From positions 1 to 64,000 of the forward strand of contig NZ_JAVHUY010000005.1 of the NCBI RefSeq assembly GCF_031085175.1: DNA of 64,000 nt, read 5' to 3'. Below are positions 15,561 through 33,511 of this stretch, piece by piece (the stretch's first letter is position 1; every line of letters starts with the position of its first letter). The stretch is from Phytohabitans maris (GTDB taxonomy: Bacteria; Actinomycetota; Actinomycetes; Mycobacteriales; Micromonosporaceae). The translations under genes and the position numbers were made by a program. The notes beneath the pieces are model-generated. The model made no database searches. It saw nothing but the letters and a program-made list of their open reading frames with translations, and had not been told where the DNA came from.

Positions 15561-15806
15561 ATGTCCGACGCGCCGACCGTCACCTCCCCGCCGAACGCCG
15601 ACACCCGGACCGAGGACAGGACGCGCGCGCAGCGACTGGTCGCCGCCTGGCTCGCCGGCACCGCCACCCCGCCCGAGGACGACCTGCGGATCGAGCCGCT
15701 GCGGGGCGACGCGGGCAGCGAGCTCTGCTTCTGCGCCGGCACGTTCTGCTGGCCGCCCGTTCCCCCGACCGGCGGGCAGCAACACGCCCGCAACGACACG
15801 GAGTAA
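15561..15806 (+). CDS. RiPP precursor peptide A
   Basis: An 81-residue peptide at the head of the biosynthetic operon. ATG 15561 has GGGAGAG upstream. The leader contains 'RTRAQRLVAAWLAG', similar to the first helix of the nitrile-hydratase-type leaders of precursors B and C. It ends in 'DDLRIEPLRGDAGS', which matches the D-L/V-x-hydrophobic-E-x-L...AG pattern also present in B and C and typical for C39-peptidase cleavage. The predicted core after AG is rich in modifiable residues, 'SELCFCAGTFCWPPVPPTGG' plus a tail: three Cys, one Ser, two Thr and aromatic residues. The P450 gene starts 3 bp after its stop. It is likely processed by YcaO, LanM and P450 enzymes and exported by the ABC genes; the final structure cannot be predicted. 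Confidence 0.75.
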   Translation: MSDAPTVTSPPNADTRTEDRTRAQRLVAAWLAGTATPPEDDLRIEPLRGDAGSELCFCAGTFCWPPVPPTGGQQHARNDTE

Positions 15807-15809
15807 CCC

Positions 15810-17003
15810 GTGGCCGCCCCACCTGCCGCTTCGGCCCTGGAGCCAGCGGCACGATCCTTCCTGCGCGGAAAACAATCGAGCAGCGCCTACCGGCTGCCGG
15901 CCGAGGCGCCGGTCCTGCCTACAGTGGACGGTTGGGTGATCTCCGGCCACCCGGAGGTGTGCCGCCTCGCCGGTGACCGCCGGCTCGTCATCGATCCCCG
16001 TGCCGGCGACCCGCCGGTGCCGCTGACCCAGTCCGAGCGGTTGGAGTCCGTCCTCGCCCGCATGCTCAACTTCCGCGACGGGGCCGACCACGCCCGGCTG
16101 CGGCGGCTGGCGACCGTCGCGTTCAGCGCCCGCCGCGCCAACGCCGTGGCGGAGACCGTCGCGGCGGTGGTGGGCGACTTGGCCGACGCCGCCCTCGCGC
16201 GGGGTGAGTTCGACGCGGTCGCCGACGTCGGCGTCCCGTTGCCGGTACGGACGACGTGCGCCCTGCTCGACATCCCGCGCGCGGACCGGCAGCAGGTGGC
16301 CGACTGGTCGACGGCGATGAGCGCCCAGCTGTTCACGTTCAAGCAGCCGCCGGACGCCGTCGAAGCGGTGGAGCGCCAGCTCGCCGAGCTCACCGGCTAC
16401 ATCGACGACCTGGCCCGTCACCGGCGGCGCGGAGACCTCGTCGCGGACCTGCACGCGGCGCTCGACCACGACGAGTTCGTGGCTTTCGTCGTGCTGCTGT
16501 TCATGAACGGCCTGGAGACGGTCACCGCCGGCATCGCCCGCGCGATCGGCGCCCTGGCCTGGCAACCCGGCCTGGCCGACCGGATCCGGCGGGACCCCGG
16601 ATCGGCGGGCGACGTCTTCGCCGAGCTGATGCGGCTGCACAGCCCGGTCCGGCTGGGCGCGCGCCGGGCGGCGGAGCCCATCGACGCGATACCGCGGGGG
16701 GCACCGGTGTTCCTCGCATGGTCACTGGCGAACCGGGATCCGCGGGTCTTCACCGATCCGGACACGTTCCGTCCCGGCCGGCCGGGACGGAGCCTCGCGT
16801 TCGGTGCCGGCCCGCACCACTGCCTCGGCGCGGCGCTGGCGGGGCAACAGGGTGCGGCGGTCCTGCGGGCGTTCGCGACGCGGGCCCGGCTCACCTGCCG
16901 CACCGACGAGGCCGGCACACCCCGGCTGCCCGGCGCGGCCATTGACGGATTCTCGGCGCTGCGCGTCGTCGCGGAGCCACTGATGGTGGGAGTGACGCGA
17001 TGA
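15810..17003 (+). CDS. cytochrome P450, RiPP tailoring
   Basis: A 397-residue soluble P450. Diagnostic motifs: I-helix 'LLFMNGLETVTAGIARAIG' (GxET in place of GxDTT), K-helix ExxR in 'FAELMRLHSPVR', and the haem loop 'FGAGPHHCLGAALAGQQ' with the axial cysteine. It starts at GTG 15810, 3 bp after the precursor stop, and its stop overlaps the ATG of the next gene. P450s in RiPP clusters hydroxylate or cross-link aromatic residues; the Phe/Trp-containing core of precursor A is a plausible target. Redox partners are not in the cluster. Confidence 0.92.
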   Translation: MAAPPAASALEPAARSFLRGKQSSSAYRLPAEAPVLPTVDGWVISGHPEVCRLAGDRRLVIDPRAGDPPVPLTQSERLESVLARMLNFRDGADHARLRRLATVAFSARRANAVAETVAAVVGDLADAALARGEFDAVADVGVPLPVRTTCALLDIPRADRQQVADWSTAMSAQLFTFKQPPDAVEAVERQLAELTGYIDDLARHRRRGDLVADLHAALDHDEFVAFVVLLFMNGLETVTAGIARAIGALAWQPGLADRIRRDPGSAGDVFAELMRLHSPVRLGARRAAEPIDAIPRGAPVFLAWSLANRDPRVFTDPDTFRPGRPGRSLAFGAGPHHCLGAALAGQQGAAVLRAFATRARLTCRTDEAGTPRLPGAAIDGFSALRVVAEPLMVGVTR

Positions 17004-17695
17004 CACGTAAGGTGGCGGAACTCGACGAGGTCGTCCACCTGACGACGCGCCGGGTGTGGGCGACCCTGACCGCGGTGCTGGTCCTTTTCGGCGCGCTGGT
17101 CACGTGGGGACTGCTGGCCCGCGTCGAGTCCACAGTAGAGCTTGACGGCATGCTTGTCGCCGGTGCCGGCCCGACGCTCGTGACCGCGCCGGCCGCGGCG
17201 ACGGTGGTGTCGTCACCACAGGTCGGCTCGGCGGTCCAGGCCGGCGCGGACCTGATCGTCCTCGACGTCGCCGGCGAGCGCCGCGTGGTCACCAGCCCGG
17301 TCGCCGGTGCGGTGTCGTCGGTCGCGGTGCGACCCGGCAGTCCGGTATCCGGCGGGGAGGTGCTCGCCACCGTCGAGCCCGCCGGCGCGCGCCTCGGCGC
17401 GGTCCTCCTGCTCGACGCCGCGAACATGGCTACCGTACCCACGGGCACGAAGGTACGGGGCGCCGGATTGAGCGGCCGGGTTACCGCCGTCGAGCCGTAC
17501 CCGGTGCGGGCCGACGACCTTGCCGCGCGGTTCGGCCAACGGTCCCTGCCCGGCGACGGGCAGCGGCTGGTCCGTGCCGTCCACGTCGACCTCGGCCTGC
17601 CGGCCCGGGCCGGTGCGACGTTGACCCCGGTACGCCTGGACCTGGTGCTGGGCGAGCGGCGCCCGGCCGATCTACTGTGGCACGGCGGTGCCTGA
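17000..17695 (+). CDS. HlyD-like adaptor of NHLM export system
   Basis: A 231-residue membrane-anchored protein with one transmembrane segment ('VWATLTAVLVLFGALVTWGLL', about residues 19-39) and a biotinyl-lipoyl-like hairpin ('VTAPAAATVVSS', 'VVTSPVAGAVSSVAVRPGSP', 'GEVLATVEP'). It resembles the short HlyD-family proteins that accompany the NHLM bacteriocin exporters. In a Gram-positive cell it may link the ABC transporter to the outer face of the membrane. ATG 17000 overlaps the P450 stop (ATGA) and its stop overlaps the next start (TGATG), so the genes are translationally coupled. Confidence 0.8.
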   Translation: MTRKVAELDEVVHLTTRRVWATLTAVLVLFGALVTWGLLARVESTVELDGMLVAGAGPTLVTAPAAATVVSSPQVGSAVQAGADLIVLDVAGERRVVTSPVAGAVSSVAVRPGSPVSGGEVLATVEPAGARLGAVLLLDAANMATVPTGTKVRGAGLSGRVTAVEPYPVRADDLAARFGQRSLPGDGQRLVRAVHVDLGLPARAGATLTPVRLDLVLGERRPADLLWHGGA

Positions 17696-19947
17696 TGGTC
17701 CTCGCGGAGCGCACCCAACCGGCGGTCAAGCCGCCTGCGGCGACGGCCGAGCCGAAACCGCCGCGACAGAAAGCCCGCCGCACCATCGAGGTGCCACAGA
17801 TGGAGGACGCCGACTGCGGCGCGGCGTGCCTGAGCATCATCCTTACCCGGCACGGGCGCCGTGCGCCGCTGGCCGAACTGCGTGAGCTGTGCGGCGCCGG
17901 ACGCAACGGCACCACCGCGGTCGGGTTCGGGCGGGCCGCCGCCACGTTCGGGTTGGAGGTCAAGGGGCGCAACGTCGTTCCGTCCGACGTGGACAGTGTG
18001 GCGCGGTTGCCCGTCCCCTCCGTGGTGCTGCTCGACGGGCGGCACTACGCGGTCCTGGAAGGCGTTCGCGGCAACCGGGTCTGGATCAACGACCCGGCCG
18101 TGGGCCGGATCCGGCTGACCGCCGAGGAGTTCGCCGCGCGGTCGAGCGGGATCGTGCTGGTGGCCACCCGGACGCCGGACTTCCGGCCGGGCGGGCCGCG
18201 GCTGCCGTTCGTCCGGGCCGTGTTCGCGAAGGTGCGGCCGTACCTGCCGATCGTCGCGGTGGCCGCACTGCTCGGCGTACTCGCCGCGGTGCCCACCGTG
18301 CTCGCGGCGCTCACCATGCGGGCGCTGCTGAACCGCGTGCTCGTCATCGGCGACCACGCGTGGCGGCCGGCGCTGCTGGCGGTCCTCGTGGTCGGTGCGG
18401 TGCTGGCCGGCGTGACCGGCTGGGCGCAGCAACGGGTCCTGTCCCGTGCCCTGTCGGTGATGGCCACCCGGTTCAGCAGCACGTACCTGGCGGCGTTGCT
18501 GCGCCTGCCCGGCGAGTTCTTCCACCGGCGGCACCTGTCGGGTCTGGTCAAACGGGCGCAGATGAACGACGGACTGGCCATCATGCTGTCGGATCGGCTC
18601 GCCGTGCCGGTGACCGCGAGCGTGACGATCCTCGGCTACGCGTTCCTGCTCAGCGTGCTGGCACCGGCGCTGCTGGCCGTGATGGCGGTCGCGGCGACCG
18701 CGCAGCTGCTGCTGCTCCGGGCGGTGGTGCGGGTCGCCGGCCCGCACCAGCAACGGCTGCTGTTCGAACAGGTGCGCCGGGACGCCACCGCCCACAGTGG
18801 ACTCTCGATGATCGAGGCGATCAAAGCCGACGGTGCCGAGCAGTGGCTCTTCGGTTCGTGGGTGCGATCGGCGACCCGCGCCCTGCGGACCGGCAACGCG
18901 CTCGGCTCGGCCACGCTGAGCCTGCTGGCGGTCAGCTCGGCGGTGGCACCGGCGGCGCTCGCGGCGTTCGTCGTGGTCGGCGCGCACCAGGTCGCTTCCG
19001 GCGAGCTGGCCCTCGGTACCTTGCTCACCGCGCAACTCGTCGCCGGCGGGCTGCTCAGCCCGCTCGGCGTGCTCGTGGGCCTCGGCTCCGAGGTCCAGAT
19101 CACCCGCGTCCAGATGTCGATCACCGATGACGCGCTGCAGGCCGTACCGCACCCGGCGCGTGCCCACGTCCTCGACCGCGCGGCGGCTCCGCCGGCCGAA
19201 ACGCCGTCGGCGCCGAAACGGCTCACCGGCGCCATCGAGTTCGACGACGTGACCTTCGGGTACGACCGGTACGGAAAGCCGCTCCTGCGAAACCTGTCGT
19301 TCGCGGCGGAGCCGGGGGAGTGGGTCGCGCTCGTGGGCGCGACCGGCAGCGGCAAGTCGACGATCGCCCGGCTCGCCGTCGGCGCGGTCGATCCCTGGAA
19401 GGGAACGATCCGCTTGGACGGCCGGCCGCGCGACACCTACACCCGCGAGCGGCTCGCCGCGTCGATCGGGTACGTCGAGCAGACGCTGCGGCTGTTCGAG
19501 GGGAGCCTGCGCGACAACCTGACGCTCTGGGACGACACCGTGCCCGAGGAACGGCTGCGGGCCGCCCTGCGCGACGCCGACCTCGACCGGCTGGTCGACC
19601 AACGCGGCGGCCTCGACGGCGGCCAGGTCACCGAGCACGCCCGCAACCTGTCCGGCGGTGAGCAGCAACGGATGGAGCTGGCCCGGGCACTGGCCGGAGA
19701 CCCACCCCTTCTGGTACTCGACGAGGCGACAAGCGCCCTCGACAGCTCCACCGAGCACGTGGTGCTGGATGCGTTGCGCCGTCGCGGTGTCACCTGCCTG
19801 TTCATCGCCCACCGGATCTCCACCGTGCGGGACGCGGACCTGATCCTGGTGCTGGACAAGGGAAGGGTCGCCCAGCGCGGCCGGCACGAGGAGCTGATCG
19901 CGGCGCCGGGCCTGTATCGGCGGCTGGCGACCGGGGGTGCGGCATGA
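17695..19947 (+). CDS. NHLM-type ABC exporter with C39 peptidase
   Basis: A 750-residue peptidase-containing ABC transporter. The N-terminal C39 cysteine peptidase shows C41 in 'QMEDADCGAACLSIIL', H117 in 'LLDGRHYAVLEG' and D133 in 'WINDP'. Six membrane helices (about 175-430) follow, then an ATPase domain with Walker A 'GATGSGKS', signature 'LSGGEQQRMELA' and Walker B 'LLVLDEATSALD'. It should cleave the leader after the Ala-Gly-type motif and export the mature product. The shape matches the NHLM/NHPM bacteriocin peptidase/permease/ATPase. It overlaps its neighbours by one to four bases. Confidence 0.92.
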   Translation: MVLAERTQPAVKPPAATAEPKPPRQKARRTIEVPQMEDADCGAACLSIILTRHGRRAPLAELRELCGAGRNGTTAVGFGRAAATFGLEVKGRNVVPSDVDSVARLPVPSVVLLDGRHYAVLEGVRGNRVWINDPAVGRIRLTAEEFAARSSGIVLVATRTPDFRPGGPRLPFVRAVFAKVRPYLPIVAVAALLGVLAAVPTVLAALTMRALLNRVLVIGDHAWRPALLAVLVVGAVLAGVTGWAQQRVLSRALSVMATRFSSTYLAALLRLPGEFFHRRHLSGLVKRAQMNDGLAIMLSDRLAVPVTASVTILGYAFLLSVLAPALLAVMAVAATAQLLLLRAVVRVAGPHQQRLLFEQVRRDATAHSGLSMIEAIKADGAEQWLFGSWVRSATRALRTGNALGSATLSLLAVSSAVAPAALAAFVVVGAHQVASGELALGTLLTAQLVAGGLLSPLGVLVGLGSEVQITRVQMSITDDALQAVPHPARAHVLDRAAAPPAETPSAPKRLTGAIEFDDVTFGYDRYGKPLLRNLSFAAEPGEWVALVGATGSGKSTIARLAVGAVDPWKGTIRLDGRPRDTYTRERLAASIGYVEQTLRLFEGSLRDNLTLWDDTVPEERLRAALRDADLDRLVDQRGGLDGGQVTEHARNLSGGEQQRMELARALAGDPPLLVLDEATSALDSSTEHVVLDALRRRGVTCLFIAHRISTVRDADLILVLDKGRVAQRGRHEELIAAPGLYRRLATGGAA

Positions 19948-22013
19948 CCGCCGTCGACGGTGTGTGGCAGACGCTGGCGCGCGCCGCGGCCGAGCGCCGC
20001 GACACCCCGATCCCGACGGCGGTGGCGGCACTGGCGGAACACTTCGGGATTCCGGTGCCGACCGAGCCGACGCTGACCCGCGCGCTTCGCGCGGCCGGCG
20101 TGCACTGGGTCGAGGTCCGGCTCACCGACGGGTGGCACCGCACCGGTGTCGCACCGCTGATCGCCTTCCGCGACGGCGCTCCGGAGACGTTGCTGCCCGG
20201 TCCGCGCGGCTACCGGCATGCCGGCGGGGCCCGGATCACCGAACCCGAGGCGGCCGGCTTCGACGAGGTCGCCTGGCAGGTGTACCCGCCGTTGACCGAG
20301 CGCGACCGCACCGCGCGCGGCCTACTGCGGTTCGCCGCCCGGGGCGCTCGCCCGGACATCCGGTTCCTGCTGCTGGCCGGGCTGCTCGCCGCCGGCCTCG
20401 CCGGCGCGATGCCGCTGCTGTCCGGGTGGCTGCTCACCCGGACCGCGGGCGGCGGCGCCGGCGGCGGCCTGGTGTGGTGGACCGCGACCCTGCTGGCCGG
20501 GTTGGTGGTCGGCAACGTGCTGCTGCTGTCGGTCCGCAACGCCGCGCTCGTGCGGCTGCAGGGGCGGTTGCAGCTACGGCTGGAGCCCGCGGTATGGGGG
20601 CACCTGCTCGGGCGCGACGTCCGGTTCCTGGAGGAGCTCGGGACCGCCGGCCTGACCCAGCGCGCGAACGCCGTCTCGGAACTGCGGCGGTCGTTGAGCG
20701 ACAGCGCGGCCTCGGCCGTGCTCGGCAGCGCGTTCGGTCTGGTGAGCCTGGGCGTGCTGCTCGCCGTCGACCCGGTGGTGGGTGGCGTGGTGCTCACCAC
20801 GACCGTGGTACTGCTGGGCGCCGCGAGTTGGGCGGCCCGCCACCTGCAACGGCACGAGATGGCCAATCGGGAGGCGTTCAGCCGGGTCGCGTCGTTCCTC
20901 CACGCGGCGCTGCTGGCGATCGAAAAGCTCCAGGTCGCCGCGCGCGAGGAGCGTGTGTTCGCCGGCTGGGCCGACCGGTACGCCCACCAGCGCCGCACCG
21001 ACGCCGCCGCGCTGCGGTGGAAGGCGGTGGTCGCGGGGCTCGCGCTGTCGATGCAGCCCGCCGCGCTCGCCGCTCTGGGCGTGTCGGTCGCGCTGCTTCG
21101 TCCCGGCGTCGAGCTGGGCACGTTCGTGGCCGCGAGTGTCGCAGTTGGACAGTTCGCGGCGTCGGCCGGCCTGCTGCACGGTGCGGTGATGTCGTCGTTC
21201 TCGATCGTGTCGGCGCACCGGCAGCTGCGGCCACTGCTGGACGCGGAGCCCGACGTCGCGCCGGGCGCCGCGGACCCCGGCCCGCTGCACGGCCGGGTCG
21301 AACTGCACGAGGTCTCGTTCACCTACCCGGGCCGCGGCCGTCCGGTGCTCGACCAGGTGAGCATCTCGGCGGAGCCGGGCGAGTTCGTCGCCGTGGTGGG
21401 CCCGTCCGGCGCGGGAAAGTCGACGCTGATCCGGCTGCTGCTCGGGCTCGTCCGGCCGAGCAGCGGCGCCGTCCGGTACGACGGCCGCGACCTCGCCGAG
21501 CTCGACCTGCGCGCGGTGCGGGCCCAACTCGGCGTCGTGCTGCAACTGGCCCGCGCGGTCCGGGGATCCATTGTGGACAACGTGGTCGCCGGTGCCGAGG
21601 ACGTGCCGGACGAACGGGTCTGGGAGGCGCTCGAACTGGCCGGCCTCGGCGACGAGGTGCGGGCGATGCCGATGGGCCTGCACACGATGGTCAGCGAGGA
21701 CAACGCGTCGTTCTCCGGCGGCCAGATCCAGCGCCTGATGCTGGCCCGGGCGCTGGTGAAGCGGCCGCCCCTGTTGGTGCTCGACGAGGCGACCAGCGCC
21801 CTGGACAACATCACCCAGCGCACGGTCTCGGACCGGATCGCCGCGTTGAGCGTCACCCGGATCGTGGTGGCGCACCGGCTCAGCACCATCCGCGCCGCCG
21901 ACCGGATCTACGTCCTCGACGGAGGAACCGTCGCCGCCTGCGGCAGCTACGCGGAACTGGCCGCCACGAGCCCCCTCTTCGCCCGTCTCGTCGCCCGGCA
22001 GGAGGTCAACTGA
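19944..22013 (+). CDS. NHLM-type ABC exporter without peptidase
   Basis: A 689-residue ABC exporter half. It lacks the C39 domain and instead has about 130 N-terminal soluble residues ('MTAVDGVWQTLARAAAERRD...') as in the second ABC protein of NHLM systems. A six-helix membrane domain (about 150-430) and an ATPase follow, with Walker A 'GPSGAGKST', signature 'FSGGQIQRLMLARAL' and Walker B 'LLVLDEATSALD'. It starts four bases before the stop of the peptidase transporter (ATGA overlap). The two proteins probably form a heterodimer with the HlyD-like adaptor. Confidence 0.9.
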   Translation: MTAVDGVWQTLARAAAERRDTPIPTAVAALAEHFGIPVPTEPTLTRALRAAGVHWVEVRLTDGWHRTGVAPLIAFRDGAPETLLPGPRGYRHAGGARITEPEAAGFDEVAWQVYPPLTERDRTARGLLRFAARGARPDIRFLLLAGLLAAGLAGAMPLLSGWLLTRTAGGGAGGGLVWWTATLLAGLVVGNVLLLSVRNAALVRLQGRLQLRLEPAVWGHLLGRDVRFLEELGTAGLTQRANAVSELRRSLSDSAASAVLGSAFGLVSLGVLLAVDPVVGGVVLTTTVVLLGAASWAARHLQRHEMANREAFSRVASFLHAALLAIEKLQVAAREERVFAGWADRYAHQRRTDAAALRWKAVVAGLALSMQPAALAALGVSVALLRPGVELGTFVAASVAVGQFAASAGLLHGAVMSSFSIVSAHRQLRPLLDAEPDVAPGAADPGPLHGRVELHEVSFTYPGRGRPVLDQVSISAEPGEFVAVVGPSGAGKSTLIRLLLGLVRPSSGAVRYDGRDLAELDLRAVRAQLGVVLQLARAVRGSIVDNVVAGAEDVPDERVWEALELAGLGDEVRAMPMGLHTMVSEDNASFSGGQIQRLMLARALVKRPPLLVLDEATSALDNITQRTVSDRIAALSVTRIVVAHRLSTIRAADRIYVLDGGTVAACGSYAELAATSPLFARLVARQEVN

Positions 22014-25000: not shown

Positions 25001-25174
25001 CACACCGCGATGCGGATCCTGCTGAACCGACGCGCGAGCCACGGCCAATGGCTGCCCGACCGGCGCCGTACCGACCAGATGCAACTGTCCGCAGTGGACG
25101 GTGTGGCCGCGGTCGGCCTGGCGTGCCTCGCGCTCGCCGAAGACGACGTGACCCCGCTACGAACGATGGCCTGA
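22013..25174 (+). CDS. LanM-type enzyme with degenerate cyclase domain
   Basis: A 1053-residue class II lanthipeptide synthetase homologue. In CylM numbering, the elimination residues D252/H254 and R506/T512 are kept as D279/H281 ('GDLHDSGRTV') and R522/T528 ('VRYIFRSTWDY'). The phosphorylation residues K274, D347, N352, D364 and E366 are kept as K301, D376, N381, D393 and E395. H349 is replaced by W378 in 'CRDLWLDNLIA'. The C-terminal LanC-like domain (about 720-1050) still has toroid helices ('LHGDLLTGTAGIAVFLAEL') but reads 'LPSGAAGVALALARY' where WCxGxxG is expected and 'PFAGAGSTADLL' where CHG is expected, so all three zinc ligands are gone. It probably dehydrates Ser/Thr to Dha/Dhb without forming lanthionine. 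It is coupled to the ABC gene (TGATG) with AGGAGG upstream. Confidence 0.9.
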   Translation: MTTTTPLGLTQPAAAPDTLLGLAGADDRLLSVIAAAAPFDERESGVHFLPVRAGGRRKLADRAQRWLRAAVAADDVSRRALLLHRQQTGRDLGAGLVDVKVRNPGRLPDWAYALVDFLLAQPPTPTEDRATELVGGVLVAFQRAAVRLTGVRRSNDGAELRGVRMTDDAADDVAGQLVQRLLQVTEAAIAFELQVADGASAPSEWYGRAGIDVSRLGWLSRLESLPGLAYVIGVTCLNYKRNVAEVFDRLHADLPTLRRELWAWSDPGPLASYSGDSGDLHDSGRTVSLLTFTGGQRVVYKPKDLRSVAGFMDVLTYLNSHGLPLPLATRRVLLREGYGWEEFVVARPCQPGEEPARFYRRLGMLARLAELLECRDLWLDNLIAIGDAPMFIDLENVLQGRMRKPALLGERTEALWHEIEESVAKTAMISYPRIGTPGKRAHDIGCVAPIQEQLAVDPEGFPFGWEAPPYRPVVDGRPVDPAAHTDDVVTGYREMDACLVANVAGLGDERGPLHLLAGARVRYIFRSTWDYMAVLRVSTSPLALTDGVARELVLARLFRGTREVLRTDPERADCLEIIEREIEMLRRLDIPLFQSVTTTCDVRTPEGATVENHFSGTAWGRLTQRLADLAERRETGAPPAEHILRACLDFAARDRPLWTEPPADTGEAPDPRKLGVYVYDPKALRPEVDHAQLLATACAAANDIMSAAVSVGSGRYGWVGVVHYPMFGLDQVEPLHGDLLTGTAGIAVFLAELYQTTGKPAYWAFAQDALAATTEFVSVSGRSSAYARLSGGRPAVGGFVGIGAAIYALARCGQVIGDAYLLEQADDLVPIAAALVGEGSSPADPVVGRAGLLMALLKLIDARPSPAAARLAARLYDQLIAELDAGIASAYPKGVRIVEALPSGAAGVALALARYAAAHRPADLSRIAGSVPVPRTPGERLAAIALAELVEAPLPGGEPFAGAGSTADLLDRVELALAAARATGGGEAGEAHRVAAHTAMRILLNRRASHGQWLPDRRRTDQMQLSAVDGVAAVGLACLALAEDDVTPLRTMA

Positions 25175-25185
25175 GGAGGACCAGC

Positions 25186-27438
25186 ATGGACACGCGCCGC
25201 CCACGGATCCGGCGGGGACACCGCGTCGAGACGGTGCCCGGCGAGGCCGTCTACCTCGTCTCGGAGCGGGAGCACCATGTCGTCGAGGGCGCGTTGGTGG
25301 AGCGCGTCCTGCCCTTGCTCAACGGCAAGCACGACGTCGACGACCTGCTCGACCAGCTCGACGACATCCCGCCCGAGCAGGTGCTCTATCTCATCGAGCG
25401 GCTGGTCGCGATGAAGGCCGTCGTGTGGGCCGACCCCGACCTGCCGGAGCGGGAGGCCGGCTTCTGGGACGTCACCGGCGTCGCCGCCGAGCAGGCGCGC
25501 GAACGGTTGGCGCAGACCGCCGTGGCGCTGGCGGTCGCCGGCGAGGTGGACCCCGGGCCCGTGCTCGACGCGCTCGCGAGTGCCGGCGTCCAGGCTCGGC
25601 TGGGCGAGGCCGGCGAAGGCTTCCGCGTCGTCGTCACCGACAACTACCTCAACCCCGATCTGGCCCGGCACAACGAGACGGCCCTGCGTACCGGACGCCC
25701 GTGGCTGCTGGCCAAGCCGGTCGGCCTGACGCTGTGGGTCGGTCCGGTCTTCAAGCCCGGCGGTGGTTGCTGGGCGTGCCTCGCATACCGGCTGAGCGGG
25801 CACCGCCAGGTCGACGAGTACCTGCGCGACCGCGCCGAGCATCAGGGGCCGCTGCGGGTGCCGCTGGCCGACCTCGCCGTCACGCGGGACATGGGTGCCC
25901 GGCTGGTCGCGCTGGAAACGGCCAAGCATCTGGCCGGGCTCGGCACGGCCGAGGAGAACGGCGTGCTGACGCTCGACACCATCCACCTGGACTCGCGACG
26001 GCACGCTCTGCATCGCCGTCCACAGTGCCCACAGTGTGGCGACGATACGCTGGCCGCGCAACGGATGTCGGCGCCGGTGCTCCTCGCCCCCCGCCCGAAG
26101 GTGTACACGGGAGACGGCGGCCACCGGGCCAAGAACCCGGACCAGGTGCTCGAGACGTACGGGCCGCAGGTGAGCCCCGTTACCGGTGTCGTGCGGGAAC
26201 TCCGTCCGTATGAGACCGGGATCGAGTTCGTCAAGGGCTACTCCGCCGGCCACAACTTCGCCCGCCGGGTCGAGCGCCTGAGCCAGCTGCGCAAGGGCCT
26301 GCGCAGCATGGCGGCCGGCAAGGGCACCACCGACACGCAGGCGCGCGCCAGCGCGATCTGCGAGGCGATCGAGCGCTACTCCGGTCTGTTCGGCGGCGAC
26401 GAGCCCCGGCGTACGGCCACCCTCGCCGAGCTGGGCGAGCAGGCGGTGGCGCCGAACGACATCCAGCTCTACAGCGAGCGCCAGTACGCGAGCCGCGCCG
26501 AGTGGAACAGCGCGCAGCGATCGTCGTTCCAGACCGTCTGCGACCCGCTGCCCGCCGACGAGCCGATCGAGTGGAGCCCGGTCTGGTCGCTCACGAACGA
26601 GCGCACCCGGTACGTGGCCACGTCACAGCTCTTCTACTGCTACCCGACGCTGCCGCCCGGAAAGCTCTGGGCATGGGCCTGTTCCAACGGCAACGCCGCC
26701 GGCGCCAGCCTCGAAGACGCGATCCTGCAAGGGTTCCTGGAGCTCGTCGAACGCGACTCGGTGGCCTTGTGGTGGTACAACCGCGTCCAGCGGCCGGCGT
26801 ACGACCTGGCCAGCTTCGGAGACCCGTGGTTCGACGAGTTCGTCGAGGTCTACAGGGGACTGCACCGCGAGGTGCACGTCCTCGACATCACCGCGGATCT
26901 CGGAATCCCGGCCGCCGCCGCGATCAGCTGGCGGGTCGACAAGCCGGCCGAAGACATCCTGATCGGTCTCGGCGCGCACTTCGACGCGAAGCTCGCCGTC
27001 CAGCGGGCGCTGGCCGAGCAGAACCAGTTCCTGCCGGCCGTCCTCGGGGTCCAGCGCGACGGGACGGGCTACGCCTTCCCAGACGCGGTGCAGCAGGAGT
27101 GGTGGCGCGAAGCGCGGATCGCCGACCACCCGTACCTGTCACCGGCGCCCGGGCCGGCGACCCGCGCCGGCGACCGCCCGGATCTGTCCTCGATGGACCT
27201 CCGCGACGACGTGCTGACCGCGCGCCGGCTCGTGGAGTCGCGGGGGATGGAGTTTCTGGTGCTCGATCAGACCCGGCCCGACATCGGGCTGCCCGTCGTC
27301 AAGGTGATCGTGCCGGGCATGCGGCACTTCTGGGCCCGCTTCGGCCCCGGACGCCTCTACGACACGCCGGTCGCGCTCGGCTGGCGCGATGCCCCGATCG
27401 ACGAGGCCGACCTTAACCCGATCCCGATGTTCCTCTAG
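25186..27438 (+). CDS. TOMM cyclodehydratase, E1-like/YcaO fusion
   Basis: A 750-residue fusion of the leader-binding E1-like partner and the YcaO enzyme that turns Cys/Ser/Thr into azolines with ATP. The N-terminal winged-helix RRE-like region (about 12-85, 'YLVSEREHHVVEGALVERVL') should bind the leader. The E1-like part has a four-cysteine zinc site, C195/C198 ('GGCWACLAYR') and C281/C284 ('PQCPQCGDD'). YcaO occupies about 340-750, with ATP/Mg segments 'ARASAICEAIERYSGLFGG' and 'ILQGFLELVERDSVALWW'. It ends in 'LNPIPMFL', close to the PxPxP tail of azoline-forming YcaOs. AGGAGG precedes ATG 25186. The mixture with LanM in one operon is unusual. Confidence 0.92.
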   Translation: MDTRRPRIRRGHRVETVPGEAVYLVSEREHHVVEGALVERVLPLLNGKHDVDDLLDQLDDIPPEQVLYLIERLVAMKAVVWADPDLPEREAGFWDVTGVAAEQARERLAQTAVALAVAGEVDPGPVLDALASAGVQARLGEAGEGFRVVVTDNYLNPDLARHNETALRTGRPWLLAKPVGLTLWVGPVFKPGGGCWACLAYRLSGHRQVDEYLRDRAEHQGPLRVPLADLAVTRDMGARLVALETAKHLAGLGTAEENGVLTLDTIHLDSRRHALHRRPQCPQCGDDTLAAQRMSAPVLLAPRPKVYTGDGGHRAKNPDQVLETYGPQVSPVTGVVRELRPYETGIEFVKGYSAGHNFARRVERLSQLRKGLRSMAAGKGTTDTQARASAICEAIERYSGLFGGDEPRRTATLAELGEQAVAPNDIQLYSERQYASRAEWNSAQRSSFQTVCDPLPADEPIEWSPVWSLTNERTRYVATSQLFYCYPTLPPGKLWAWACSNGNAAGASLEDAILQGFLELVERDSVALWWYNRVQRPAYDLASFGDPWFDEFVEVYRGLHREVHVLDITADLGIPAAAAISWRVDKPAEDILIGLGAHFDAKLAVQRALAEQNQFLPAVLGVQRDGTGYAFPDAVQQEWWREARIADHPYLSPAPGPATRAGDRPDLSSMDLRDDVLTARRLVESRGMEFLVLDQTRPDIGLPVVKVIVPGMRHFWARFGPGRLYDTPVALGWRDAPIDEADLNPIPMFL

Positions 27439-27446
27439 GAGGCCGC

Positions 27447-28961
27447 GTGCTCACCTCCGTCGTAGCCGACAAGGTCCGCCTCGCCGACGACGTGTCCGTC
27501 GTGCGGACCGGCGACAAGTGTGTGGTCGTGTTCCGCCACGGGCGGGTCGCGTTCGGGGCGCGTGACACGGCGCTCGGTGCCGTGTTGGCCGCGCTCGAAG
27601 CGGGGCCGGTGAGCCGCACCGAGCTCGAAGCGGCGGCGCTGGCGGCGGGTGGTGACCCCGTGTCGGTCCTGGCGAGGCTGGACTGGTTGCTGGCCAGGCT
27701 GCACGGCGCGCTCGTCCACTCGGTGGCCGTCGACGGACGCGAGGTCGCCCGCGTGGTCCCGCTTACTGGTGACGGCGCGTACCGCCCCGCGCCGGTGCCG
27801 CACGGCCCGATCGCGTTGTCACGGCTGGCGTTCCTGCGCCGGCGTGGCACCGAAGCGGTGCTGGAGTCGGGACGGTCGGCGTACCGCGTGGTGCTGTGCG
27901 GATCCGAGGCGGTCGCGGTCGCCGCGGCGCTGGCGCGTCCGGCGGACCTCGCCGCGCTCGCCGCGGACCTGAAGCTCGACGCGCGCCTCGTCGCCCGGCT
28001 CGTCGCCGCCTTCACCGCCGCGGACCTTACCGATGCCGGCGACTCCGAGACCGACCAATGGAACTTCCACGAGATCCTGTTTCACGCGCGGAGCCGGCTC
28101 GGCCGGCACGACGAACCGTTCGGCGCGACCTTTCCGTATCTCGGGGAACGCGATCCGCTGCCCGCCGAGTATCCCGCCCGCGAGGGTCCGGCGGTCGTGC
28201 TGCCGCGGGTGACCCTCGACGCGGTGGCCCGGCGCGATCCGCCGCTGGTGATGGTCCAGGAGGCGCGCCGGTCGGTGCGCCACTACGGGGCCGATCCGCT
28301 GACCCTCGACCAGTTGGGGGAGTTCCTGTACCGGGTGGGCCGGGTGCGGGCGGTGTACGGCCCGGCCGAGGGAATGCCGTACGAGGCGGTCGACCGGCCG
28401 TACCCGACCGGCGGTGCGTCGGGTGACATCGAGATCTACGTGACCGCGCACCGCGTGGCCGGACTCGACCGGGCGGCGTACCAGTACGACGCCGTGGCGC
28501 ACCGGCTGGTGCGGGTCTGCGCCGATCCGGCGCGCGTCGACGCGTTGCTGCGCGGCGCCGCCGTCGCGACCGGTGGGACGCCGACACCCGACGTCCTTCT
28601 CACGTTCACTTCCCGATTCGGCCGGATGACGTGGAAGTACGACGGAATGGCCTATGCCGCCACGCTCAAGCATGTCGGTGTCCTGTACCAGACGTGTTAT
28701 CTGGTCGCGACCGCCATGCGGCTGGCGCCGTGCGGGCTGGGCAGCGGTGACGCGCAGCTGTCGGCGCGGGTGCTGGGGCTGGACTGGGCCAGCGAGTCCT
28801 CGGTGGGCGAGTTTCAGCTCGGCAGCCTGCCACCGTCGGCCCCCGGCGCGGCCGGTGCCGGGCGGCCGCACTGGCGCGGGCACAACGATCCGGAGTGGGC
28901 GGCCCGGGCCTCCTTCGGGCTCGGACAGGTCGGCCGTTCGGACGGTTATTCAGGTGAATAG
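27447..28961 (+). CDS. SagB-type azoline dehydrogenase
   Basis: A 504-residue FMN-dependent nitroreductase-fold enzyme of the SagB type that oxidises azolines to azoles. The N-terminal 200 residues are a helical domain seen in long SagB proteins. The catalytic half begins near residue 270 with 'RRSVRHYGADPLTLDQLGEFLYR' (FMN phosphate-binding arginines) and includes 'HVGVLYQTCYLVATAMRLAPCGLGSGD', matching the SagB consensus 'LYQxxxLxAxALGLGxC'. The start is GTG 27447, 8 bp after the cyclodehydratase stop with AGGAGG between. Its presence predicts thiazole/oxazole end products. Confidence 0.9.
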   Translation: MLTSVVADKVRLADDVSVVRTGDKCVVVFRHGRVAFGARDTALGAVLAALEAGPVSRTELEAAALAAGGDPVSVLARLDWLLARLHGALVHSVAVDGREVARVVPLTGDGAYRPAPVPHGPIALSRLAFLRRRGTEAVLESGRSAYRVVLCGSEAVAVAAALARPADLAALAADLKLDARLVARLVAAFTAADLTDAGDSETDQWNFHEILFHARSRLGRHDEPFGATFPYLGERDPLPAEYPAREGPAVVLPRVTLDAVARRDPPLVMVQEARRSVRHYGADPLTLDQLGEFLYRVGRVRAVYGPAEGMPYEAVDRPYPTGGASGDIEIYVTAHRVAGLDRAAYQYDAVAHRLVRVCADPARVDALLRGAAVATGGTPTPDVLLTFTSRFGRMTWKYDGMAYAATLKHVGVLYQTCYLVATAMRLAPCGLGSGDAQLSARVLGLDWASESSVGEFQLGSLPPSAPGAAGAGRPHWRGHNDPEWAARASFGLGQVGRSDGYSGE

Positions 28962-29001
28962 GCGCATGTAAGGATTGGCCGCGGTAAGGGGGTCGTCGCA
29001 T

Positions 29002-30162
29002 ATGGCTACCGTCGACGAGTCGCCCGACCGGGCGCCGGTCACCCCGGACCTGGCGGTCCGCATCGCGCAGTGGGCCGTCCTGCTGCTCACGGTGGCCTAC
29101 TTCAGCTTTCCAGCCGCGCGGGTGCTCAGCCACGAGTCCCCGCTGAGCGCGGCCGGTGCGTTGGCGGCGCTGGCGTTGCTGGCCGCGTTGCAGTTCCGGC
29201 ACACCTGGCACGGGCTGCGGGCCGAGCCGAAGGTCGCGTGGTCGCACACGCTGCTGTGGCAGGCGCTCCTGTCGTACCTGCCGGCGTACCTCGCCGGTGA
29301 CGCGTGGCTCGGCGTCCCCTCGTTTCTGGCCGCCTCCGCGCTCGTGATGCTGCGTTCGCCGCGTGGATACCTGGTCTTCGCCGCCGTGGTGGTGGCCGAG
29401 GTGCCGTTCGCCGCGCTGTTCTACCGAGGCATCGGCGACATCGCGTACGCGTGCCTCACCACGGCCGTCACCGGGCTCGTCGTGTACGGGTTCATCCGGA
29501 TGGCGGCGCTGGTGCTGGAGGTGCACCGGCTGCGGGCGTCGCTGGCCCAGCGCGCCGTCGACACCGAACGGCTGCGCTTCGCCCGCGACCTGCACGACGT
29601 GCTCGGCCACACGCTCGCCGCGATCGTCCTCAAAGGAGAGTTGGCGGGCGCCATGATGCACACCCGTAGCGACGACGCCGAGCGCGAGCTGGCCGAGATC
29701 GTGGGTCTGGCCCGGGCGGCGCACCGCGAGGTACGGGAAGTGGTCAGCGGCTACCGGACCGCCACGCTCAGCGCGGAGCTCACCGGGGTCACCACCGTGC
29801 TCACCGCCGCGGGTATCGACTGCGTGGTCGACGCCGCACCGCTCGACGCGTTGCCGGCCGAGGTGTCCGGGCCACTGGCGTACGCGTTGCGGGAGAGCGC
29901 GACCAACGTGTTGCGGCACAGCCGCGCCAGCCGTTGCGACATCACGCTGCGGACCGCCGACGGCGGGGTCGACCTGACCGTCGTCAACGACGGTGTGCCT
30001 TCCGGCGCCGAAGGGCCGCCGGGCAGCGGGCTCAACGGGTTGCGGGAACGAGTCGCCGGCGGCCGGGGCCTGCTGCGAGCCGGCCCGCTGCCCGACGGCC
30101 GGTTCGAGCTCGCCATCCACATGCCGTTGCGAAGCGGCTCGCGCCTGGTGGAGGCTCAATGA
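29002..30162 (+). CDS. NarL-type sensor histidine kinase 1
   Basis: A 386-residue sensor kinase of the DesK/NarX type. Five to six membrane helices occupy about 15-180. The dimerisation-phosphoacceptor helix carries 'RLRFARDLHDVLGHTLAAIVL' in part (H in RDLHD), and a HATPase domain contains 'ALRESATNVLRHSRASRCD' and 'VVNDG'. Its stop overlaps the ATG of the next response regulator. It is a close paralogue of the kinase at 31689. It starts 41 bp after SagB and probably belongs to the main operon. The signal might be the exported product or cell-envelope stress; the sequence does not say. Confidence 0.9.
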   Translation: MATVDESPDRAPVTPDLAVRIAQWAVLLLTVAYFSFPAARVLSHESPLSAAGALAALALLAALQFRHTWHGLRAEPKVAWSHTLLWQALLSYLPAYLAGDAWLGVPSFLAASALVMLRSPRGYLVFAAVVVAEVPFAALFYRGIGDIAYACLTTAVTGLVVYGFIRMAALVLEVHRLRASLAQRAVDTERLRFARDLHDVLGHTLAAIVLKGELAGAMMHTRSDDAERELAEIVGLARAAHREVREVVSGYRTATLSAELTGVTTVLTAAGIDCVVDAAPLDALPAEVSGPLAYALRESATNVLRHSRASRCDITLRTADGGVDLTVVNDGVPSGAEGPPGSGLNGLRERVAGGRGLLRAGPLPDGRFELAIHMPLRSGSRLVEAQ

Positions 30163-30770
30163 TCCGCATCCTCGTGGCCGAGGACATGCACATGGTGCGC
30201 GGCGCCCTGGTTGCCCTTCTCTCGCTCGAAGACGAGTTCGAGGTGGTCGCCGACGTCGCCACCGGCACGGCCGTGCTGCCGGCCGCCCTGCGCGAAAAGC
30301 CCGACGTGGCGATCCTCGACATCAACATGCCCGGCGCCGACGGCCTGAGCGCCGCCCTGCAGCTGCGCCAACGGCTGCCGTCCTGCCGCACCATCATCCT
30401 CACCAGCCACGCCGAGGCGGGCAATCTCGCCCGCGCGATGCTGGCCCAGGTGTCGGCGTTCCTTCCCAAGGACGCGCTCCCGGCGCGGCTCGCCGATGCC
30501 GTCCGGCGCGTGCACCGGGGCGAGCGGGTGCTCGACAGCGAGGCCGTCGTGGCGGCGTTCCAGCAGGGCGCCAACCCGTTGACCGACCGCGAACGTGACG
30601 TGCTCTCGTGCGTCGCCGAAGGGTCCGACGTCAGCGACGTGGCCGCGCGCCTCTACCTGGCCAAGGGCACCGTGCGCAACTACCTCTCGTCGATCATGTC
30701 CAAGATGGGCGCCCGCAACCGCGTCGACGCCGTACGGATCGCCCGCGACCGCGGCTGGCTCGGCGCCTGA
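30159..30770 (+). CDS. NarL/LuxR response regulator 1
   Basis: A 203-residue response regulator. The receiver domain (1-120) has the acidic pocket 'VAEDMHMVRGALVALL', the phosphoacceptor D in 'VAILDINMPGADG' and K in 'LPKDALPARL'. The C-terminal LuxR helix-turn-helix is canonical: 'LTDRERDVLSCVAEGSD', 'VAARLYLAKGTVRNYLSSIM' and 'KMGARNRVDAVRIA'. It is coupled to kinase 1 by an ATGA overlap and followed by a strong hairpin. It is a candidate for binding the ATGAC-N4-GTCAT palindromes upstream of both precursor units. Confidence 0.92.
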   Translation: MIRILVAEDMHMVRGALVALLSLEDEFEVVADVATGTAVLPAALREKPDVAILDINMPGADGLSAALQLRQRLPSCRTIILTSHAEAGNLARAMLAQVSAFLPKDALPARLADAVRRVHRGERVLDSEAVVAAFQQGANPLTDRERDVLSCVAEGSDVSDVAARLYLAKGTVRNYLSSIMSKMGARNRVDAVRIARDRGWLGA

Positions 30771-30783
30771 CCCTCCTCTACCG

Positions 30784-30818: not shown

Positions 30819-30832
30819 TCGTCGCGTGCGGC

Positions 30833-30846
30833 ATGACATTCGTCAT
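30833..30846. promoter_or_regulatory. ATGAC-N4-GTCAT palindrome, promoter 2
   Basis: ATGAC-ATTC-GTCAT, with the same arms as the site at 15363-15376 but a different spacer. It lies 86 bp upstream of the second leader hairpin. It is the likely operator for one or both response regulators of the cluster. Confidence 0.6.
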
Positions 30847-30931
30847 GCGCGGGTCGTTGCGCGCGTGACTGTCGGCGGTGGCACGGGATTCGGCACGATT
30901 AACGCGTTCGATGACCGTCGAACACCGGTGT

Positions 30932-30954
30932 AGCGGACAGTCCAGATGCCCGCT
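30932..30954 (+). promoter_or_regulatory. conserved leader hairpin, unit 2
   Basis: AGCGGAC and GCCCGCT enclose the loop AGTCCAGAT, identical to the loop of the hairpin at 15466-15494. One stem pair is mismatched. It lies 53 nt before the start of precursor B. Confidence 0.55.
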
Positions 30955-31007
30955 CCCCGCACCGTCACGAGTCGGCTCCCTGCCGGCACTGTAGGAGGAG
31001 GTTGGCC

Positions 31008-31346
31008 ATGGCCGAGGGATACTACGTTCTGTCGGAGACCGAGCGTCGCAAGTTCGCGGGCATCGTGTCGAAGATCTGGTCGGACGAGGCGTTCGCCGAG
31101 CGCTGGCAGAACGAGCCGTTCGCCGTTCTGGCCGAGCACGAAATCGAGTACCCGAAGGGCTTCCCGCCGCCGCTCGTGCCCGAGAAGCCGTCCGGCGACC
31201 TCAGCCTGGAGAGCCTGGAGGAGATCGTCGCCGGCTCCGAGGCGGAGGGGACCGCGGGCACCCTCGGCAGCGCGAGCTCGGTCAGCTGCCCGGCCGGCAC
31301 CGCCGCCTGCTTCGGCTCGTACGGCTCCGCCGCCGCCCAGGCCTGA
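31008..31346 (+). CDS. RiPP precursor peptide B (NHLP leader)
   Basis: A 112-residue precursor with a nitrile-hydratase-alpha-like leader: 'ETERRKFAGIVSKIWSDEAF' is followed by 'AERWQNEPFAVLAEHEIEYP', the usual NHLP pattern. The leader ends in 'GDLSLESLEEIVAGS', matching the LSxExLxxVAG cleavage signal. The predicted core is Ser/Thr/Gly/Cys rich ('GTLGSASSVSCPAGTAACFG', then 'SYGSAAAQA'). The motif VSCPxG...C is shared with precursor C. AGGAGG sits ahead of ATG 31008. It is the first gene of the second transcription unit. Confidence 0.88.
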   Translation: MAEGYYVLSETERRKFAGIVSKIWSDEAFAERWQNEPFAVLAEHEIEYPKGFPPPLVPEKPSGDLSLESLEEIVAGSEAEGTAGTLGSASSVSCPAGTAACFGSYGSAAAQA

Positions 31347-31416
31347 CACACGTCGGATCGGGGCGCCGGCCACGCCAGCGCCCCGTTCCGGACGCGCGGA
31401 CTCCGAGGAGGGTCAG

Positions 31417-31686
31417 ATGGCTTCCATTCCGGCCGAGCACCGCGCTCGGTTCGCCCGGCTCATCGCGGACGCGTGGTCCGACCCGGACGTCGCGGCCCGC
31501 TACGAACGCGAGCCGGTGGCTGTGCTGGCCGAGTACGGCATCGTTCTCGACGGCGACAGCGCGGCACCTGAGCTGCCACCGGCTCCCGGCGACGTCGCCG
31601 TGGAGGATCTCGGCGTATCCGCCGGCGCGGCGATGGCCACGATCGGTACCGTCAGCTGCCCCGGCTCCTGCATCGGGCTGAGCTGA
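31417..31686 (+). CDS. RiPP precursor peptide C (NHLP leader)
   Basis: An 89-residue precursor, paralogous to B. The leader 'HRARFARLIADAWSDPDVAA' plus 'RYEREPVAVLAEYGIVL' is nitrile-hydratase-like. The C39-type signal 'GDVAVEDLGVSAG' precedes a short core 'AAMATIGTVSCPGSCIGLS' with two Cys, three Ser and two Thr. GAGGAGG lies upstream of ATG 31417. The kinase gene begins 2 bp after its stop. The short core is the clearest target for product prediction: azoles at Cys/Ser and dehydro residues at remaining Ser/Thr. Confidence 0.88.
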   Translation: MASIPAEHRARFARLIADAWSDPDVAARYEREPVAVLAEYGIVLDGDSAAPELPPAPGDVAVEDLGVSAGAAMATIGTVSCPGSCIGLS

Positions 31687-31688
31687 CC

Positions 31689-32885
31689 ATGGCTGGCGAC
31701 GGTGCGGCCGTGCCTTCTACGGTGGTCGCCGCACCGGTCCTGGCCGGCGCCCCCGCCGAGGGGCAGGTACGACGGGCGCGGGCCGTCGTCGTGACCCGCA
31801 CGATCGCGTACGTCTTCGCCGTCGGCATGCTCGGCTTCGGCCTGCTCCCGATCGTCAACGCCGTGGTCCGGGACCGTCCGCTGTGGACACTCGTGGTGGG
31901 CTCCGTCGCGTTCGCGATCGCGGCTCTCGCGTTCGTCCGCGTCGTGACGGTCGCGATGAAGCACCCGTGGCGCAACCAGACCGTACGCCAGACGGCCGTC
32001 GTGGTCGGCATCGCGATCGCCTTGCCGGTGCTGGTCGACGCCGACTGGCAGATCATCGGGTTTCTACCGGTGGCCGCCGTGACGGTGTCGCTGCGGCCGC
32101 GCTACGGACTGCTGGCGGCGCTCGCGGTGCTGGCCGTGCTCACCGTGGAGCGCGGCCTGCTCGGCGTCAACGGCGTCGCCTTCCTCACCCTGCAGGATCT
32201 GCTCACCGGGATGACGCTCGCCGGCATCATCGTGCTCGTCGCCTTCGTCGAGGAGTTGTTCGCGGCGCGGGCGGAGATCGCCCGGCTGGCCGTCACCGCC
32301 GAACGCAGCCGGTTCGCCCGCGACCTGCACGACACGCTCGGCCACAACCTGTCGGCGATCGCGCTCAAGTCCGAGCTCGCGCTGCGGCTGCTCGACGCCG
32401 ACCCGGTGCGCACCCGTACCGAACTCCTCGACGTCCACGACATCGCCCGCGAGTCGCTGCGCGACGTGCGCACGGTCGTCAAGGGGTACCGGCGCGACTC
32501 GCTGGAGCGCGAGCTGAGCGGTGTCCAGTCGGTGCTGGTGTCGGCCGGCGTGCGGTGCGAGATCTCACCGCTGGCCGCCAGCCTGCCCGGCCCGGTCGAG
32601 GAGGCGCTGGCGTGGGCGGTCCGTGAGGCGGCCACCAACCTCTTGCGGCACAGCGTCGCCAGCCGTTGCGACATCGCCGTCGACGTCACCGACACGTCGG
32701 TGCGGCTGACCGTCGTCAACGACGGCGCCGGCCAGGCCGAGCCGGACACGCACGGCGGCAGCGGCCTGGCCGGGCTGACCGAGCGCCTGAACCCGTTGGG
32801 CGGCCGGCTGACCGCCGCCGCCCAACCCAACGGCGAATTCACGTTCACTGTGGACATTCCCATCATCCAGGGGAGGAAACGATGA
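31689..32885 (+). CDS. NarL-type sensor histidine kinase 2
   Basis: A 398-residue sensor kinase. Five or six membrane helices lie in about 35-190, then 'RFARDLHDTLGHNLSAIALK' holds the phosphoacceptor histidine, and 'WAVREAATNLLRHSVASRCD' and 'VVNDGAG' belong to the ATPase domain. It is clearly paralogous to kinase 1 ('RHS.ASRCDI' and 'LTVVNDG' are shared). It starts 2 bp after precursor C and its end overlaps regulator 2, so it is cotranscribed with the precursors. Confidence 0.9.
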   Translation: MAGDGAAVPSTVVAAPVLAGAPAEGQVRRARAVVVTRTIAYVFAVGMLGFGLLPIVNAVVRDRPLWTLVVGSVAFAIAALAFVRVVTVAMKHPWRNQTVRQTAVVVGIAIALPVLVDADWQIIGFLPVAAVTVSLRPRYGLLAALAVLAVLTVERGLLGVNGVAFLTLQDLLTGMTLAGIIVLVAFVEELFAARAEIARLAVTAERSRFARDLHDTLGHNLSAIALKSELALRLLDADPVRTRTELLDVHDIARESLRDVRTVVKGYRRDSLERELSGVQSVLVSAGVRCEISPLAASLPGPVEEALAWAVREAATNLLRHSVASRCDIAVDVTDTSVRLTVVNDGAGQAEPDTHGGSGLAGLTERLNPLGGRLTAAAQPNGEFTFTVDIPIIQGRKR

Positions 32886-33511
32886 TCCGCGTACTCGTCG
32901 CCGAGGACCAGAACCTGATCCGTGGCGCACTGGTGGCCCTGCTGTCACTCGAGCCGGACATCACCGTCGTCGCCGAGACGGCTCGCGGCGATACGATCCT
33001 GGCCGAGATCGAGCACAGCCGGCCGAACGTCGCCGTGGTCGACATCGACCTGCCCGGCATGGACGGCATCGTCGCCGCGCAGCGGCTGAAGGACGCCGGC
33101 TCCCCGGTGCGGATCCTGGTGCTGACGAGTGTGGGTACACCCGGGAACTTCGACCGTGCCATGCAGGCCGGCGTCGCCGGCTTCCTCGTCAAGGACGCAC
33201 CGAGCGACCGCCTTTCCCGCGCGATCCGCGACGTGCACGCCGGCCGCCGCGTCATCGACGTCGAACTGGCCGACGCCGCCGGCGGCCCGGCCCCGGTCGC
33301 CGCCGCCAGAGTCTCCGCCGGGCCGCTGTCGTCGCGGGAACGCGGCATTCTGGCCGCCCTGCGGGAGGGCGCGTCGCTGCCGTCGCTGCGGTCGGTGTTC
33401 GGACTGTCGAGCGCGACCCTGCAGGCACACCTGGCGGCCGCCCAGAGCAAGACCGGCAGCCGCTCGTCGGCCGACGCCGCGCGTGTCGCCTACGAGAACG
33501 GCTGGCTCTGA
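32882..33511 (+). CDS. NarL/LuxR response regulator 2, divergent HTH
   Basis: A 209-residue response regulator with an intact receiver ('VAEDQNLIRGALVALLSLE', D in 'VAVVDIDLPGMDG', K in 'LVKDAPSDRL'). The C-terminal helix-turn-helix 'LSSRERGILAALREGASLPS', then 'FGLSSATLQAHLAAAQSKTG', keeps the outline of a LuxR domain but departs from consensus at several positions. The EIA of helix 2 and TVKNH of helix 3 are replaced by LRS and TLQAH. It is paralogous to regulator 1 and could bind a different or degenerate site, or act by heterodimerising. A hairpin follows. Confidence 0.88.
   Translation: MIRVLVAEDQNLIRGALVALLSLEPDITVVAETARGDTILAEIEHSRPNVAVVDIDLPGMDGIVAAQRLKDAGSPVRILVLTSVGTPGNFDRAMQAGVAGFLVKDAPSDRLSRAIRDVHAGRRVIDVELADAAGGPAPVAAARVSAGPLSSRERGILAALREGASLPSLRSVFGLSSATLQAHLAAAQSKTGSRSSADAARVAYENGWL

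Follow-up and report, generated by a model that had tools for sequence, protein, structure and literature searches.

Goadsporin and the thiopeptides carry azoles together with dehydroamino acids, with the azole installed first, and their dehydratase is a split LanB; this enzyme works with glutamyl-tRNA, as stated in the main text of Pei, Zhu and Nair (2023, PMC10676384). The same text describes the dehydrazoles, a class of about 50 clusters found mostly in Proteobacteria and Actinobacteria, which encode a LanM with a DUF4135 dehydratase and a cyclase devoid of zinc ligands (LanMbC), a YcaO enzyme and NHLP precursors. Carnazolamide contains eight azoles and eight dehydroalanines (Dha) and no lanthionine, and the LanMbC CcaM acts solely on Ser before an azole, on the azole-bearing peptide and without need of the leader (PMC10676384, main text). 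Here we analyse a stretch of 64,000 nucleotides from Phytohabitans maris (the window; contig NZ_JAVHUY010000005.1), whose 9.87 Mb host genome belongs to the family of Micromonospora. Between positions 15561 and 33511 it holds a cluster of 14 genes that combines a LanM with azole-forming enzymes and a cytochrome P450. On our best reading of its sequence, the cluster is a well-supported member of the dehydrazoles and represents a distinct actinobacterial subtype with at least two predicted kinds of product.

An earlier sequence-only reading of this DNA knew of no characterised product for such an enzyme set. Carnazolamide and a named class that includes a P450-bearing member overturn this, so the enzyme combination is not new (PMC10676384, main text). 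The carnazolamide cca cluster of Chryseobacterium carnipullorum shares the zinc-less DUF4135 LanM, the YcaO enzyme, the dehydrogenase and Ser/Thr/Cys-rich NHLP precursors with the window. In contrast to cca, whose published description names an S8 peptidase and uses the word 'transporter' 0 times in the main text, the operon in the window holds a C39-ABC/ABC/HlyD exporter; it also has three precursor types, a P450 and two kinase/regulator pairs, and by reading none of its 14 genes encodes a radical SAM epimerase or a methyltransferase. The P450-bearing cluster, from Streptomyces sp. SN-593, resembles the window by its published description in LanMbC, YcaO, dehydrogenase and P450. Neither the pairing of a short-leader precursor with a P450 nor the GTCCAGA repeat described below was found in the main text of PMC10676384.

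Two further groups of systems are related in part. An association of NHLP precursors with LanM or with fused cyclodehydratases, and with an export trio, was reported by Haft, Basu and Mitchell (2010, PMC2887384), and the window shares with these systems the NHLP leaders, the trio TIGR03794/03796/03797 and the fused cyclodehydratase TIGR03882. According to that paper, the NHLPs of Nostoc are accompanied by a LanM in place of the cyclodehydratase fusion, and one undecided Azospirillum case has both gene kinds. The cyanobactin enzymes LynD, TruD and MusD and the oxidase CyaGox are the nearest solved relatives of the azole enzymes; the precursors in the window differ from those of cyanobactins, and no macrocyclase was seen by reading among the 14 genes.

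A LanM with intact dehydratase motifs and no zinc motifs

The LanM of the window scores 362.6 bits with TIGR03897 (cut-off 304) and matches DUF4135 (PF13575) at E 9.4e-90, and its LANC_like match spans profile positions 2-138 of 350 only. We compared it across 13 clusters: that of the window, two more from Micromonosporaceae (G279, Micromonospora gifhornensis, and G210, of the same genus) and ten from a second family of the same class (f91). Five dehydratase motif patterns, chosen after work on CylM, are intact in all 13 LanMs, and the zinc motifs CHG and WCxG each occur in 0/13. The zinc-dependent LanM cyclase that marks class II lanthipeptide clusters is thus absent throughout. Features typical of dehydrazoles are present, namely a DUF4135 dehydratase, a zinc-less fused cyclase and an adjacent YcaO and flavin dehydrogenase; an NHLP precursor with a Ser/Thr/Cys-rich core is seen in precB and precC and not in precA.

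For comparison, 30 LanM loci were drawn from other genomes of the family. Of the 29 that gave a frame of more than 850 amino acids (aa), CHG is found in 26 and WCxG in 24; three have neither, one of them a broken frame. Among these LanM-type proteins from other family genomes, L160 and L164 have neither zinc motif.

Layout of the cluster

All features lie on the + strand:

15466..15494, +: inverted repeat copy 1, with perfect 11-bp arms around GTCCAGA, ending 66 nt 5' of the precA start codon
15561..15806, +: precursor A (precA), 81 aa, with a shortened NHLP-like leader and a Cys/aromatic core containing CFCAGTFCW
15810..17003, +: cytochrome P450, Pfam PF00067
17000..17695, +: HlyD-like export adaptor; best NHLM model TIGR03794, 29.9 bits (cut-off 156.2)
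17677..19947, +: C39 peptidase-ABC (ATP-binding cassette) exporter, NHLM ABC1-like; TIGR03796, 652 bits (cut-off 853)
19944..22013, +: second NHLM-like ABC transporter (ABC2); TIGR03797, 597 bits (cut-off 709)
22013..25174, +: LanM of the LanMbC kind, 1053 aa; DUF4135 dehydratase and a cyclase-like domain without zinc motifs
25186..27438, +: E1-like/YcaO fused heterocyclase; TIGR03882 and TIGR03604, both above cut-off
27447..28961, +: SagB-type azoline dehydrogenase; TIGR03605, above cut-off
29002..30162, +: sensor histidine kinase 1, role read from sequence; alternative in-frame TTG start at 28975
30159..30770, +: response regulator 1, LuxR-type, read from sequence
30929..30957, +: inverted repeat copy 2 around GTCCAGA, imperfect (8/11 arm pairs), ending 50 nt 5' of precB
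31008..31346, +: precursor B (precB), 112 aa, with an NHLP leader; core ...TLGSASSVSCPAGTAACFGSYGSAAAQA
31417..31686, +: precursor C (precC), 89 aa, with an NHLP leader above the TIGR04351 cut-off; core ...MATIGTVSCPGSCIGLS
31689..32885, +: sensor histidine kinase 2, role read from sequence
32882..33511, +: response regulator 2, role read from sequence

The 14 genes form two units. In the first, adjacent genes from precA to SagB overlap or lie 3-11 nt apart, and two more genes of this unit follow SagB, for a kinase and a response regulator; the second unit consists of precB, precC and another kinase/regulator pair and ends at 33511. Pfam and NCBIfam models were run on ten of the 14 cluster proteins, the kinases and regulators being assigned by sequence reading. 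These models bear out the gene content given by the sequence-only reading, with precursors, C39-ABC, second ABC, HlyD-like protein, LanM, E1-YcaO fusion, SagB and P450 all in place and the two further precursors present in the second unit.

The hallmarks of NHLM export, an HlyD protein, a C39-ABC and a second ABC alongside NHLP precursors, are all found. For the export trio the NHLM models TIGR03796, TIGR03797 and, weakly, TIGR03794 score best, all under their equivalog cut-offs. The YcaO fusion aligns with LynD over residues 9-748 of 750 (631 bits), with TruD and MusD also close, and the closest solved relative of SagB is CyaGox (244 bits).

Three precursor types

A profile made from seven leaders picked up 56 NHLP-type open reading frames in the 13 clusters. 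Type C, to which precC belongs, ends in TIGTVSCP(T/G)(G/S/A)C, in short TVSCPxxC; it occurs in 13/13 clusters, in each of them with Ser before Cys. Type B is rich in Gly, Thr and Ser and counts 18 genes in the 13 genomes. Fourteen further NHLP frames with other cores all belong to f91. Precursors of the NHLP type that follow SagB in G930, G1074, G1112 and G1132, with cores such as EPCASCYSQGATW and TISTVGCI, have no counterpart in the window.

Type A sits directly before HlyD, or before the P450 where one exists. The f91 representatives carry a complete NHLP leader ahead of cores such as PPCLDFCFCW; the three from Micromonosporaceae are the short precA, whose leader is much shortened. Ser-Cys or Thr-Cys occurs in the last 30 residues of 0/13 type-A precursors. 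The motif CFCxGTFCW is invariant in 3/3 short precA, and in a search of 300 family genomes its DNA pattern occurred, at the cluster, in these 3 and no others. In profile comparison (hhalign) the C-terminal part of precA matches type A of f91 with probability 84.5 (P 6.9e-6), versus probability 1-2 with types B or C. We read its leader as one that has lost the middle and kept an LxVExL-like stretch near the core, which presumably resembles the recognition strand of cyanobactin leaders. The sequence-only reading had treated the cores A-C as alike substrates, which does not hold: A is, judged by these comparisons, of another type than B and C. None of the Cys in precA follows a Ser or Thr, and by the published rule this precursor should not be a LanM substrate.

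A P450 is present in 3/13 clusters, exactly those with the short-leader precA (3/3). In the ten clusters with a full-leader type A no significant P450 match was obtained in the 33-38 kb of each that were examined (best E 0.065). This pairing is a concrete lead towards new peptide chemistry. Outside the 13 clusters, a PCFC core is found in an NHLP precursor of a Streptomyces genome with YcaO and P450 (G839). The G839 loci L043/L044, like L049/L050 (G1026) and L051/L052 (G470), carry an NHLP-type precursor, an E1/YcaO protein, a histidine kinase and a P450; no LanM or SagB match was found in the stretch taken from these Streptomyces loci.

Conservation in two actinobacterial families

All 14 genes recur in identical order in G279 and G210, with 45-80% protein identity. 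The gene for precA is kept at 46-49% identity, and because it is retained with all 14 genes in both genomes we regard it as real. The HlyD-ABC1-ABC2-LanM-YcaO-SagB core is found in 13/13 clusters, window included, and two kinase/regulator pairs are likewise present in each. Judged by this conservation, the dehydrazole genes form a stable module, together with three conserved types of precursor, in both actinobacterial families.

In the family, a LanM search at E 1e-100 with the two best candidates scored per genome matched 3 of 300 genomes, own genome included; across the phylum, at E 1e-60 and with two candidates scored per genome, it matched the own genome only among 396. A profile search of genome contigs gave no relative with the single LanM, and with a three-row alignment only M. 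gifhornensis. Because these broad LanM scans yielded few relatives, clusters were sampled more widely through a precursor search and a LanM search in f91. The former found the precursor family in 38 of 394 genomes at E 0.001, with 1 above cut-off, and the six strongest of the 37 other genomes were taken forward: two have a LanM (G930 and G970), and four Streptomyces have YcaO with no LanM match in the 20-36 kb taken. The latter matched 10 of 200 f91 genomes at E 1e-150. The ten additional LanM+YcaO clusters all come from this family.

Between SagB and the first kinase, an ABC ATPase match is seen in 10/13 clusters and in none of the window, G1075 and G1167; the gap concerned in the window runs from the SagB end at 28961 to the kinase start at 29002. 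In G279 and G210 the ATPase is paired, by reading, with a membrane partner and forms an extra ABC gene pair. The ABC gene at this place may be a self-protection transporter.

A 29-nt inverted repeat ahead of precursor genes

Upstream of the precursor genes lies a 29-nt inverted repeat with the centre GTCCAGA, found before type A in 13/13 clusters and before 17 of the 18 type-B genes; the exception is the type-B gene of G970 downstream of SagB. A strict filter finds 29 copies, which end 20-67 nt ahead of the start codon, and one weaker copy in G1150 brings the number to 30. A covariance model trained on 15 distinct copies gave 30 matches at E 0.1, in 13/13 cluster genomes and all within the clusters; that the training copies are found again follows from how the model was built, but the lack of further matches does not. 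In this search the 150 best of about 7,600-13,400 first-look candidates were scored per genome, and 0 matches were obtained in the four Streptomyces genomes with YcaO and no LanM match.

The two kinase/regulator pairs and the repeats would join both units in one regulon, with binding by the regulators inferred, and the element may offer a handle for switching such clusters on. That it acts as an RNA hairpin in the 5' leader, and not as a DNA operator for the response regulators, is in our view possible while falling somewhat short of probable. The centre is invariant and asymmetric, the arms covary (score 0.398 vs 0.187 in shuffled alignments, reached in 0/500 shuffles), copy 1 folds strongly as RNA (-23.1 kcal/mol, z -5.68) and one copy ends just 20 nt before the start codon. 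However, a palindromic operator would covary too, the rows are related to one another, and 63/500 shuffles reach the number of doubly changed pairs (6/11). At one inner position of the arms, pairing fails in 8 of 15 distinct rows, the fold of copy 2 is weak (z -1.67), and each cluster carries its two kinase/regulator pairs.

Rfam searches of 14700-33600 with E up to 1 returned three matches below the gathering score, none at the repeats, and neither a sigma-70-like promoter nor a terminator was detected in 15350-15600 or 30770-31020. A 17-base pattern search of the repeat with 2 mismatches hit 168/200 genomes, and a similar result for the reversed control marks it as background. A literature search with GTCCAGATG and inverted repeat found nothing related, as far as titles and the beginnings of abstracts show.

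Proposed pathway and alternatives

Taken together with the published biochemistry, the gene content makes it very probable that the cluster produces exported, leader-derived peptides of the dehydrazole kind. We infer the chemical steps as follows. The E1/YcaO fusion would read the precursor leader and convert Cys, perhaps also some Ser/Thr, to azolines, which SagB would oxidise to azoles. The zinc-less LanM would then dehydrate Ser directly before an azole, turning ...Val-Ser-Cys-Pro... of precC into ...Val-Dha-thiazole-Pro... and leaving no lanthionine rings; the C39 exporter and its partners would cut the leader and export the peptide. On precA, YcaO and SagB would form azoles and the neighbouring P450 would follow with an oxidation or a cross-link. 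Dehydration is not expected on this precursor, in which no Ser/Thr precedes a Cys and the leader is only a stub.

The reconstituted LanMbC/YcaO/dehydrogenase set indeed yields Dha before azoles (PMC10676384, main text). The proposal of the sequence-only reading that a LanM stands in for the split LanB gains support from the match in kind to CcaM, as described in that text, and from the missing zinc motifs. Its prediction of azoles plus Dha or dehydrobutyrine (Dhb) survives as far as azoles plus a dehydroamino acid go; the published rule confines dehydration to a Ser that immediately precedes an azole, and by this rule Dha rather than Dhb is expected (PMC10676384, main text). The operon may be regarded as a natural test of this azole-first rule, since its TVSCP cores obey it and its CFCxGTFCW cores cannot.

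Several observations weigh against the proposed dehydrazole pathway. The azole-first rule derives from one enzyme in another phylum. Both zinc motifs are missing as well from 3 of the 29 LanMs used for comparison, one of these a broken frame, so that this loss is typical of these clusters and not unique to the class. Ser-Cys occurs in only 1 of 18 type-B cores, with Ser before Ser/Thr in 9 of 18, and core B diverges strongly between window and relatives, with Cys present or absent. The NHLP profile misses precA at E 0.01, and its relation rests on the C-terminal match. As to the P450, its pairing with precA belongs to one clade of three genomes, a single event that is no proof of function; in the Streptomyces G470 and G1026, which also have YcaO and P450, the core is another one, DCSSW, and no P450 match was obtained in G831.

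Three other readings of the locus can be set against this one. The genes might be divided between two unrelated pathways, YcaO, SagB and P450 acting on precA only and LanM on B and C only, with no doubly modified peptide. The differing core types agree with such a division, as does the Streptomyces YcaO+P450 locus whose PCFC precursor has no LanM match nearby. We nevertheless consider it unlikely, given that the LanM lies between exporter and YcaO in 13/13 clusters, including the ten without a P450 match, and that the studied LanMbC needs an azole-bearing peptide (PMC10676384, main text). Slightly less likely still is a class II lanthipeptide cluster of the ordinary kind to which the azole genes are accessory, its LanM being responsible for dehydration as well as for (methyl)lanthionine ring formation. 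The LanM does exceed the TIGR03897 cut-off and the precursors contain Cys and Ser/Thr, but the cyclase zinc motifs are missing from every cluster and the LANC_like match is truncated. Zinc-independent class III cyclases still form rings, so sequence alone cannot settle this point; the homologous published set yields no lanthionine (PMC10676384, main text). A goadsporin- or thiopeptide-like cluster is highly improbable. precB does score above the cut-off of the thiocillin family model NF033482 (31.9 vs 25 bits) and azole enzymes are present, yet the ten scanned cluster proteins include no LanB, the locus is syntenic with LanMbC clusters, and a search for LanB (PF04738, PF14028) gave no match in the own genome, though control genomes gave none either, so this does not establish absence.

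Within the dehydrazole reading, we put forward a more specific version tentatively, as one that may well not hold in full: a distinct actinobacterial subtype would make at least two chemically different products per operon, the azole form of its minimal-leader CFCxGTFCW precursor would be cross-linked or oxidised by a dedicated P450, and a new, cluster-specific 29-nt GTCCAGA element would be in control.

Neighbouring genes

Downstream of the cluster, a frame at 37740-38714 in the window resembles, by reading only, a D-alanine-D-alanine ligase and is probably unrelated to the cluster. Upstream of this frame lies a gene at 36898-37668 that reads as TetR-like.

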